Positions 16,942 through 53,059 of a stretch of 60,435 bases of DNA are shown here, piece by piece. Within the stretch, counting starts at the first letter, position 1; every line of letters starts with the position of its first letter. Below the pieces are notes generated by a model. It was not told where the DNA came from and ran no database searches. It saw only the letters and a program-made list of their open reading frames with translations. The DNA comes from Myxococcales bacterium (GTDB taxonomy: Bacteria > Myxococcota > Myxococcia > Myxococcales > JAKAPL01), in assembly GCA_021807105.1 (NCBI GenBank), contig JAKAPL010000016.1:1-60435 (forward strand), written 5' to 3'. Position numbers and translations under genes: made by a program.

Positions 16942-17320
16942 GAGGCTGGTGTGAAATGGCTGCCTGCTGCGAAAGCCGATCCCTTCGCTGCGACGGGCGG
17001 CCTCGTCGCTTCGCTGCTCAACGTACTGCAAAGAGTACGTTGTACTGCAAAGAGTACGTTTGACGCTGCTTACTCCTCGGGCACCCGTCTCGCCTTAGCC
17101 CGTCTTATTCACGGTCCGGCTGCTGCGGCGTCCGATCCCGCGCCTGCGAAGGGCGTGCTCGCTCCTTCCTCCTGCGGCGTGCTTTACGCACGCCTCGTCG
17201 GTCGTCGCTCTCGCTTGCCCTTCTCGGCTGCGGTCTCGAACGCCTCGCTACGCCGTACCGTGAATAAGACGGGCTTAGGTCTCGGTTTTCTCGCGACGGC
17301 ACCCATTTCACACAAGCCTC
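16942..17320. mobile_element. Family B inverted-repeat element, interrupted by a Family A element
   Basis: Ends GAGGCTGGTGTGAAATGG and CCATTTCACACAAGCCTC are inverted repeats. They are flanked by CTAG at 16938-16941 and CTAG at 17321-17324. The right CTAG contains the complement of the sucD stop TAG. Internal sequence (GCGAAAGCCGATCCCTTCGC, then CTCGGTTTTCTCGCGACGGC) matches the copies at 24845-25022 and 52181-52359. The element is split by the Family A copy at 17098-17274. It also has a small internal direct repeat (TACTGCAAAGAGTACGTT twice near 17021-17060). No ORF. Confidence 0.9.
17098..17274. mobile_element. Family A inverted-repeat element nested in Family B
   Basis: 177 bp with perfect 18-bp ends GCCCGTCTTATTCACGGT. 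It is flanked by TTA on both sides (17095-17097 and 17275-17277). It is almost identical to the copy beside clpX (differing around TCGTCGCTCTCGCTTGCC). Uninterrupted Family B copies show the empty site as CGTCTCGCCTCGGTCTCGG, so the insertion point is clear. Confidence 0.93.
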
Positions 17321-24844: not shown

Positions 24845-25022
24845 GAGGCTGGTGTCCAATGGCTGCCTACTGCGAAAGCCGAACCCTTCGCTGCGACGGG
24901 CGGCCTCGTCGCTTCGCTGCTCAACGTGCTGCAAAGAGTCCGTTTCCGCTGTTCACTCCTCGGGCGCCCGTCTCGCCTCGGTCTCGGCTTTCTCGCGACG
25001 GCACCCATTTGACACCAGCCTC
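24845..25022. mobile_element. Family B inverted-repeat element
   Basis: 178 bp with ends GAGGCTGGTGTCCAATGG and CCCATTTGACACCAGCCTC. The left flank CTAG (24841-24844) includes the stop codon of the hydrolase gene. The right flank reads CAGA, so that side of the target has changed. Internal sequence matches 16942-17320 without the nested insert. Its plus strand is open and reads into the aminopeptidase gene, but no translation of the element is supported. Confidence 0.9.
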
Positions 25023-25067
25023 CAGAGGGGGGCCGCTCGCCTGCCGGTGAGCGGAACGGAGATCGAG

Positions 25068-45407: not shown

Positions 45408-45924
45408 GCCCATCTCTTCAACAGGACGGCGCGGCGGGGCGGAGAAGACGCGCAGCCCCGGGACGCGCGGTCGCCGTCCGGGGGCTTCGGCCGGAGCACC
45501 CTCCAGTGGCCGCGGCTCGGCTTCGAGGGCCGCCGCTGATTCACCCGCCCCTACTTGGAGGCGGGCCCTTCGCCGGGGGCCGGCTCGCCCGCTGGCGCCA
45601 AGTCCGAAGCGCCCGGCAGCTTCGCCGGGGCGATCGGAGCCTGGGAGGCCGGGCGCCCGTCTCGATTCGGTCTCGGCTTTCTCGCGACGGCACCCATTGG
45701 ACACGGGTCTCCTGGACCACCGCTCCCTGCGTCCCGTTCGGATCGACGGCCTGAAGACCCGGAGATCCACCAAGGGTGATCGCCCGGAGTTGCCTCTTGC
45801 CCCGGCCGGTCCCCGTGATCGCCTTGGTGCCCTGCGCCCTTCTTCGCGGCGAGCGCCTTCTGCACCGGTGATCGTCCACCACCCGAGGAGGCGGGCGTCC
45901 ATCGCGCTCGGAGGTCACTCCCGG
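45408..45924. other. Intergenic region with a Family B relic
   Basis: About 517 bp between the molybdoenzyme and clpB. Apart from the relic at 45651-45711 it holds no convincing gene. The minus-strand open frames here are low-complexity shadows in GC-rich sequence. Confidence 0.4.
45651..45711. repeat. Right-end fragment of Family B
   Basis: GGGCGCCCGTCTCGATTCGG onward matches 24961-25022 through CTCGCGACGGCACCCATTGG to the terminal GACACGGGTCTC. The left half is missing. CTGG follows where CTAG would be expected. A 61-bp relic. Confidence 0.75.
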
Positions 45925-51637: not shown

Positions 51638-52180
51638 ATGGCGCCGACCCTGAAGACCGCGTGGAAGACCATCGAGCCGTGGCTCCTCCCGATCGCCGTG
51701 GCGGTGGGGCTGACGTTCTTCCTCACCCGCGGGTTCGGCTCCGTGGAGCCCCAGCACCGGCCGCTGCCGCCCCTCGCCGGGCGCCTGCTCGGATCGGCGG
51801 CCATGGTCACGAACCAGACGCTCGCCGGCAAGCCGGCGATCCTGGCCGCCTGGGCGCCCGGTTGATGGGTGTGCCGCCGGGAGTTGCCCGGCCTCGACGA
51901 AGTGGCGAGGGAGTACGCCGGGAAGGTCTCGGTGATGGGGGTCCTCGTGGGGGGGAGCGCGCGGGAAGCGACGGGCTTTCTCCAGAGCGCGGGGCTGACC
52001 CACCTGCCGATCGTGGAGAACGCCTGGCCCTTCGTCCAGGCGCTGGACGTCGAGGCGGTCCCGGCGGTCTTCTTCGTGCAGGCCGATGGGACGATCACCG
52101 GGCGCGTCGATGGGCTCGCGCCCCGTTCGCTCTTCGAGAAGCAGGCCCGGAAGCTGCTCGCGCAGGCCGGCGCGCGCTAA
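51638..52180 (+). CDS. TlpA/DsbE-like membrane thioredoxin, probable selenoprotein (UxxC)
   Basis: 180 aa if the in-frame TGA at 51863-51865 is read as selenocysteine (residue 76). Residues 12-30 form an N-terminal membrane anchor (IEPWLLPIAVAVGLTFFLT). The active site reads WAPG-U-WVC-RRELPGLDEV, with Cys79, exactly where TlpA/ScsD-type proteins have WAxxCxxCRxELP. The cis-Pro loop is VPAVFFVQADGTI (Pro142), intact after the TGA. A hairpin starts 10 bp beyond the TGA. The rest of the protein shows no decay. If the TGA were a true stop, a 75-residue membrane peptide without active site would result. A reading as pseudogene remains possible but less likely. The stop TAA is in the CTAA target of the next element. 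Confidence 0.8.
51876..51892 (+). promoter_or_regulatory. Candidate bacterial SECIS hairpin
   Basis: GCCGGG (51876-51881), loop AGTTG and CCCGGC (51887-51892) make a 6-bp stem. The loop starts 16 nt after the TGA and has G in its second position, both within what is known for bacterial SECIS elements. It overlaps coding sequence for RRELPG, as bacterial SECIS elements do. Confidence 0.65.
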
Positions 52181-52359
52181 GAGGCTGATGTCCAACGGCT
52201 GCCTGCTGCGAAAGCCGAACCCTTCGCTGCGACGGGCGGCCTCGTCGCTTTGCTGCAAAACGTACGGAAAAGAGTACGTCTCCGCGGCCCACTCCTCGGG
52301 CGCCCGCCTCGTCTCGGGTCTCGGCTTTCTCGCGACGGCACCCATCGGACATGAGCCCC
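52181..52359. mobile_element. Family B inverted-repeat element
   Basis: 179 bp with ends GAGGCTGATGTCCAACGG and CCCATCGGACATGAGCCCC. Flanks are CTAA at 52177-52180 (containing the selenoprotein gene stop TAA) and CTAG at 52360-52363. The interior matches 24845-25022. It separates the selenoprotein from the monoheme lipoprotein gene. Confidence 0.9.
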
Positions 52360-52375
52360 CTAGCCAGGCGCGCGG

Positions 52376-52642
52376 GTGAGGCTCGGGCGCCTTCTGCTGC
52401 TCTTCCTGCTGCCGTGCGCGGCTTGCTCCGCCGGCGACGGTTGGGACAACTTCGCCGAGACGGTCTTCGACCGGCGCTGCCTCCCCTGCCACGCCGGGTA
52501 CGGCAGCTACGAGATCGTGCGCGAGGATTCGGAGAAGATCGCCGGGAAGATCGAGTCGGGGGCCATGCCGCCCGACGGCGGGCTGCCCCCCGATGTCCGG
52601 CGGCGCGTGCTCGCGTGGATCGACCGGGGCGGGCCGGAGTAG
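52376..52642 (+). CDS. Small monoheme c-type cytochrome lipoprotein
   Basis: 88 aa, GTG start at 52376. Leader RLLLLFLLPCAACSAG with lipobox. One heme site CLPCH, then GAMPPDGGLPP, whose Met may be the second ligand, ending VLAWIDRGGPE. It aligns over its whole mature length with the tail of the lipoprotein at 33320 (NFAETVFDRRCLPCHAG versus NYAHAFFDNNCTQCHSY). Its neighbour upstream is the Sec-thioredoxin, which could keep the heme-site Cys reduced. That link is inferred. Confidence 0.8.
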   Translation: MRLGRLLLLFLLPCAACSAGDGWDNFAETVFDRRCLPCHAGYGSYEIVREDSEKIAGKIESGAMPPDGGLPPDVRRRVLAWIDRGGPE

Positions 52643-52780: not shown

Positions 52781-53059
52781 ATGGCGAGAATCGTTCACTG
52801 CGTCAAGCTCGGCAAGGATCTGCCCGGACTCGACGAGCCGCCCTGGCCCGACGAGTTGGGCGATCGGATCTGGGAGAAGGTCTCGGAAGAGGCATGGAGG
52901 CTCTGGCTCGAGCACCAGAAGATGCTCCTCAACGAGTACCGGCTCAACCCCGCGTCGCAGGAGGCGTACGGGCTGCTCCACCAGGCGTGCGAGGACTTCT
53001 TCTTCGGCGAGGGGGCCCAGCTCCCGCCGGATTACGTGCCCCCGCAATCCAAAGGCTGA
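52781..53059 (+). CDS. yggX: YggX-like Fe(II)-trafficking/oxidative damage protection protein
   Basis: 92 aa, ATG at 52781 with GGAGG at 52770-52774. It begins [20 protein letters not shown] (conserved Cys7), followed by [20 protein letters not shown], as in the YggX family. The protein is cytosolic and protects Fe-S enzymes from oxidation. It ends 3 bp before the likely start of the radical SAM gene. Confidence 0.92.

Follow-up and report, generated by a model that had tools for sequence, protein, structure and literature searches.

An in-frame TGA in a ResA/TlpA-type thioredoxin-fold gene of myxobacteria is probably read as selenocysteine

Introduction

Reviews count more than 80 families of prokaryotic selenoproteins (PMC9312934). 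Among the listed selenoproteins are the Prx-like thiol:disulfide oxidoreductases, which combine the Pfam domain PF00578 with a UxxC or UxxU motif (PMC9312934, PMC13188914), as well as other UxxC families with a thioredoxin fold and the thioredoxin-like VPGUxxT selenoproteins, NF041383 (PMC13188914). In bacteria, the SECIS element is described as lying directly 3' of the UGA and as ending in a small apical loop that contains a guanosine (PMC1088965). ResA, a thioredoxin-fold protein with cysteine in its active site, is a membrane-anchored reductase of the heme-binding disulfide in apocytochrome c, and CcdA in turn reduces it (PMC3884852). In the open-licence literature we found no myxobacterial selenoprotein of the UxxC ResA-like kind; the part of PMC1794560 that lists the selenoproteins of Anaeromyxobacter does not include such a family, and the main text of PMC13188914 contains no word beginning with Myxococc.

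Here we describe a gene in a 60,435-nucleotide stretch of DNA from a Myxococcales bacterium (assembly GCA_021807105.1), hereafter the window. In all probability the gene encodes a ResA/TlpA-type thioredoxin-fold protein with selenocysteine (Sec), predicted to be a membrane-anchored periplasmic thiol-disulfide reductase. With the Prx-like selenoproteins (reference WP_010940744.1) its product shares a PF00578 match above cut-off and a UxxC motif (U76-W-V-C79), a likeness of domain and motif, whereas the myxobacterial family has a motif of its own, W-x-P-x-U-x-x-C-x-R-(E/K)-(L/F)-P. It resembles ResA of Bacillus (1st9, 4nmu) in its fold, its active site, the Glu and Pro that follow and its predicted N-terminal anchor. 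However, ResA has Cys where the window's protein has Sec, the two are only about 21% identical, the score against the ResA model NF002854 of NCBIfam is 36.3 bits, far under the cut-off of 170, and the window's gene is without conserved cytochrome-maturation neighbours.

Two further families invite comparison. The WAxxUGC selenoproteins (NF041054) carry a ResA-like name and have Sec in their motif, and their model gives a weak match in 14 of the 16 rows of our family alignment, but the window's protein reaches only 25.5 of the 300 bits that the model requires and has UWVC, not UGC. The VPGU of the VPGUxxT selenoproteins recurs in some relatives of the window's gene (L030, L031), but NF041383 has Thr at the resolving place, where all 16 rows have Cys, and it is absent both from the 7 families matched by the window's protein (P0001), which stays below the cut-off of every one of these NCBIfam models, and from the 12 that the 16 rows match (E 0.001). 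UxxC selenoproteins with a PF00578 domain are a kind already known; the myxobacterial family itself seems to be undescribed.

Results

The gene and its in-frame TGA

The genome of the window (G000) is a 94.9% complete draft of 3.76 Mb, split into 129 contigs, and the window is its contig C92. The features of the gene are collected in Table 1. Its frame closes with a TAA at 52178-52180 and contains a single in-frame TGA, the one that the first-pass annotation had described as parting two open frames of the same register; the coordinates and the reading given there are exact. Read through, the gene yields the product MAPTLK...WAPG-U-WVC-RRELP...AGAR. Third-position G+C is 0.97 upstream of the TGA and 0.94 downstream, so that both halves look coding, and dN is smaller than dS on both sides in 7 of 7 pairs, with few changes in each. 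The pattern TGA-6N-TGY-3N-CGGGAGTTKCCCG, with up to two mismatches allowed, matches the window once, at 51863, and none of 100 shuffles.

Table 1. Positions of the predicted features of the gene within the window
Feature	Position	Strand	Basis
Putative selenoprotein gene	51638..52180	+	180 aa with U76; ATG to TAA; TGA read as Sec; PF00578 and PF08534 above cut-offs; 31-member family
Predicted N-terminal membrane helix, residues 3-31	51644..51730	+	AlphaFold2 helix; hydrophobic by eye
Codon TGA of U76, at the first position of the active site	51863..51865	+	TGA also in 28 of 31 members
Codon TGC of C79, the predicted resolving Cys	51872..51874	+	invariant (16-row and 12-row alignments)
Predicted SECIS hairpin GCCGGG-AGUUG-CCCGGC	51876..51892	+	core in 28 of 28 TGA genes; 2 of 6 pairs changed on both sides
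TTG leucine codon in hairpin loop, rare codon	51884..51886	+	sole TTG among the gene's 22 Leu codons
Pro142 codon, predicted cis-Pro	52061..52063	+	invariant (16-row and 12-row alignments); precedes strand 143-147 in the model

Family members with TGA and with Cys

In the orthologue from a sister genus (G001), which is 40% identical, the codon of residue 76 is likewise TGA (WSPG-U-MAC-IREL). When a first profile made of these two proteins was run against the 147 genomes of the class, further TGA genes surfaced, and a 16-row profile over the same genomes gave 31 members at E ≤1.8e-38, the next match standing at 9.7e-27. The nucleophile codon is TGA in 28 of them and TGC in three (G091, G124, G128). 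The TGA genes span 15 genera, and six are in genomes assembled into no more than two contigs, so that a local sequencing error, which the first-pass annotation had named as a possible undoing of its reading, is ruled out. A search of the phylum (195 genomes) added one more member, G157, with the codon TGT. These comparisons uphold the earlier placement of the TGA on the position of the nucleophilic Cys, with the resolving C79 kept. They also agree with the expectation of Cys and TGA at the site, nothing else having been seen there in the relatives read, but not with the forecast of mostly Cys and a few TGA, the family being mostly TGA.

Compared with the protein database, the 16-row alignment found 23 proteins at E ≤1e-15. 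Nine of these are full-length, at 149-171 residues, and all nine have Cys at the site. The other 14 have 93-117 residues; the three examined (P0011, P0016, P0018) take the downstream half's Leu or Met as their first residue and are annotated as hypothetical protein, two of them coming, by their database names, from Myxococcus stipitatus and Corallococcus macrosporus. Searched with the window's protein alone, the database gave no match at E 0.001 among 2046 candidates, and a scan of database genome contigs returned the sister-genus copy only (record JAJXUD010000042.1).

Selenocysteine machinery and the form of the gene

The Sec machinery, whose presence had been proposed as a check, is found in the genome of the window: tRNA-Sec (74.6 bits against an Rfam cut-off of 47, anticodon TCA by ARAGORN), SelA (454.9 bits), SelB (303 bits across its frame against a cut-off of 242) and SelD (359 bits against 125), the last two sharing one contig about 4 kb apart. 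SelD (L090:1501-2421, that is G000:C125:7920-8840) has an in-frame TGA of its own at L090:1531, which makes it a second likely selenoprotein of this genome; the resulting GGG-U-ACK agrees with UxxK, the motif given for SelD proteins that contain Sec (PMC13188914).

Across the class, SelA was detected in 130 of the 147 genomes and tRNA-Sec scored above cut-off in 123. SelA is present in 28 of 28 genomes with the TGA form and in one of three with the Cys form, and tRNA-Sec in 27 of 28 and one of three, respectively (Fisher p = 0.006 and 0.019, uncorrected for relatedness). In G091 and G124, both of the Cys form, neither was found; G124 is only 87% complete, and the absence is therefore less sure there than in G091 (98%). 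Two genomes count against the pairing, namely G128, which has the Cys form despite SelA and tRNA-Sec, and the draft G138, which has the TGA form without a listed tRNA-Sec.

In a tree of 28 Sec, 3 Cys and 14 outgroup rows, in which several long branches were flagged, 29 of the 31 members group together with a support of 99/99. Outside this group lie the gene of the window and the orthologue from the sister genus, so that the tree does not show the Sec form to have arisen once. The Cys rows are nested among Sec rows, G124 beside G084 (94/83) and G091 with G128 beside G088 (87/91), a placement as expected if Sec had been replaced by Cys more than once. G044 and G072 belong to different genera and have a nearly identical gene (L067, L068); the copy of G064 (L062, genus g19) falls within the g33 copies, while the g19 copy of G062 falls outside. 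Transfer between species may possibly account for these two cases.

Another genome of the window's genus, G002, has a thioredoxin with NHL-like repeats, named by eye (L023:1345-3366; G002:C243:4094-6115). A TGA at L023:1579 occupies its first active-site Cys position (FWTYG-U-VNC), a hairpin-forming stretch follows, and its relatives have Cys at the site in the 8 of 9 where our script located the motif; to judge by these features it is likely a second selenoprotein. G002 also has a Cys-type ResA-like gene (L021:734-1213 on G002:C7; LWSPACFACVHEL), about 1.5 kb from its tRNA-Sec (G002:C7:2684-2778). The Sec-type gene was not found in G002, which is only 69% complete.

A conserved hairpin downstream of the TGA

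In all 28 TGA genes, 13 near-identical bases start 15 bases past the first base of the TGA. The sequence at this distance is CGGGAGTTGCCCG in 22 genes, CGGGAGTTTCCCG in five and CGGAAGTTGCCCG in one, and codons +5 to +8 read CGG-GAG-TTG-CCC in 22, CGG-GAG-TTT-CCC in five and CGG-AAG-TTG-CCC in one. Wherever position +7 is leucine its codon is TTG (23 of 23), as against 11 of the 585 other Leu codons in the same stretches (608 less these 23); it is the hairpin sequence, fixed at that distance, that makes this leucine TTG. The three Cys genes have different sequences at the place of the hairpin, some of them also able to fold.

The outer pairs covary. In an alignment of 9 distinct rows out of 15 genes, 98.1% of the cells are paired and 5 cells are changed on both sides, and 0 of 500 shuffles match the paired share, the both-side cell changes or the covariation score; two of the pairs have changes on both sides, a count that 131 of the 500 shuffles reached, and 334 reached the number of pair types. 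Versions of the alignment slid along the sequence are at most 53.7% paired. Folding of the window's 50-base stretch is not unusual, 65 of 200 shuffles being at least as stable, and 4.6% of the synonymous versions of its 21-base core fold as well as the core itself. The same synonymous control gave at most 0.55% in 24 of the 28 genes, the other three beside the window's being G001 (1.45%), G118 (17.1%) and G106 (16.2%). The window's hairpin is thus unremarkable by folding alone, and the case for it rests on conservation. In its place directly downstream of the TGA and in its loop, AGUUG, it agrees with the description of bacterial SECIS elements, and it is a predicted element of this kind.

Fold, membrane anchor and neighbourhood

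The best Pfam matches of the protein are AhpC-TSA (PF00578; 30.1 bits, cut-off 26) and Redoxin (PF08534; 29.7 bits, cut-off 26.6), both running from residue 57 to 154-156. An AlphaFold2 model computed from the 16-row alignment, with C in place of U, has a mean pLDDT of 91.5 and shows the N-terminal helix followed by a thioredoxin fold, with residue 76 immediately before the helix 77-92 and Pro142 immediately before its strand. As far as the model can tell, the downstream fold and the predicted cis-Pro are intact, as had been claimed. Foldseek against solved structures ranked ResA at the top (3c73, 1st9; TM-score by target 0.88-0.90), and a comparison of sequence with structures put ResA first when the profile was used (4nmu) and second, after 2m72, with the window's protein alone. 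In the latter comparison U76 falls on the first Cys of the CEPC of ResA, and E82 and P84 on the Glu and Pro of KKEFP. The label TlpA/DsbE-like given by the first-pass annotation needs one correction, the fold being of the ResA/TlpA type and the solved structure nearest to it that of ResA, not DsbE. Many relatives have, instead of the helix, lipobox-like ends of the signal region (GACD, GGCE and SGCD, by eye), which makes export likely, and we consider the protein likely to be exported to the cell envelope.

Genes in the neighbourhood were called with our own script from third-position G+C, without a gene finder. Around the window's gene and its relatives, no conserved partner was seen that points to a given substrate. 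Just downstream, at 52376-52642 of the window, a short frame encodes a product that resembles a lipoprotein; it contains CLPCH, a CxxCH motif of the heme type, and matches nothing in Pfam. A CcdA-like gene, named by eye, is near the relative L075. The gene of the window is followed by a dispersed repeat of about 180 bases (52181-52360), of which the window has a second full copy, 88% identical, at 24845-25023 and shorter pieces at 16942-17040 and 45650-45703; L008 and L011, from the same genome, contain more matches.

Discussion

The in-frame TGA at codon 76 is very likely read as selenocysteine. The same TGA and the same hairpin recur in 28 related genomes, and a selenium-containing protein is therefore very likely; the machinery in the genome and the pairing of TGA and Cys forms with it likewise favour the selenocysteine thioredoxin that was first proposed.

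Under the standard code, a TGA interrupts the frame, and in a draft of 129 contigs the two halves might be the remnants of a pseudogene or an assembly fault, produced by a nonsense mutation or a sequencing error. We regard this as extremely improbable, given a codon shared by 28 members of 15 genera, six of them from assemblies of at most two contigs, high third-position G+C and dN below dS on either side of it, and a downstream hairpin whose sequence is kept. There is hardly more to be said for a second gene, or a deliberately short product, in which the downstream half is translated from an inner start, either the GTG at 51869 or the conserved TTG. A 103-residue open reading frame does start with that GTG, and the three database pieces that were examined do start at this Leu or Met, but five of the 28 TGA genes have TTT, which is no start codon, at the place of the TTG, the GGGAG touches the TTG with zero spacing, the downstream half is left without the nucleophile, and the Cys relatives are single chains. 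Some bacteria read in-frame UGA as another amino acid, Trp or Cys, and the lineage might have such a changed code. The odds of this are very long: the site in relatives is Cys and not Trp, UGA terminates ordinary genes, for example that of the Fe(2+) trafficking protein at 52781-53059, and the Sec apparatus is present, while the two genomes without it have Cys in place of the TGA. In view of the recurrence, the TTT codons, the Cys relatives and the UGA-terminated genes, these readings were set aside.

A different matter is whether the selenoprotein is a peroxidase of the peroxiredoxin type instead of a disulfide reductase. AhpC-TSA and Redoxin as the best Pfam matches speak in its favour, but we think it rather unlikely, as the UxxC has a Glu and a Pro behind it, like the CEPCKKEFP of ResA, the motif is not the TxxU listed for Sec peroxiredoxins (PMC13188914), and ResA structures rank first.

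As a disulfide reductase, the protein could work in the following manner. From what is generally known of these families, SelB, bound to the hairpin, would bring Sec-tRNA with its UCA anticodon to the UGA. Once exported, the chain would be anchored in the membrane by its N-terminal helix. The selenolate of U76 would attack the disulfide of the substrate and C79 would resolve the selenosulfide, after which a membrane reductase, e.g., CcdA or DsbD, may recharge the protein. A guess at the substrate, after the example of ResA, would be apocytochrome c; it might also be some other disulfide of the envelope.

Taken as a family, these genes probably represent an exported Sec thioredoxin of myxobacteria that has gone unrecognised, with a motif of its own, a SECIS whose 13 bases hardly vary and dictate the choice of codons in the protein, and Cys in place of Sec in hosts without the machinery; they would then form a selenium-based thiol relay of the envelope that annotation pipelines have cut in half. 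A gene that appears broken is in this case very likely a working selenoprotein, recurring in 28 genomes of the class. The family offers a clean test set, with a Sec form and a Cys form of one protein in hosts that either have or lack the Sec machinery, and its relatives in Myxococcus and Corallococcus, which can be cultured and engineered, make the claim directly testable. The conservation of the hairpin, in turn, shows which bases the SelB of myxobacteria likely needs.
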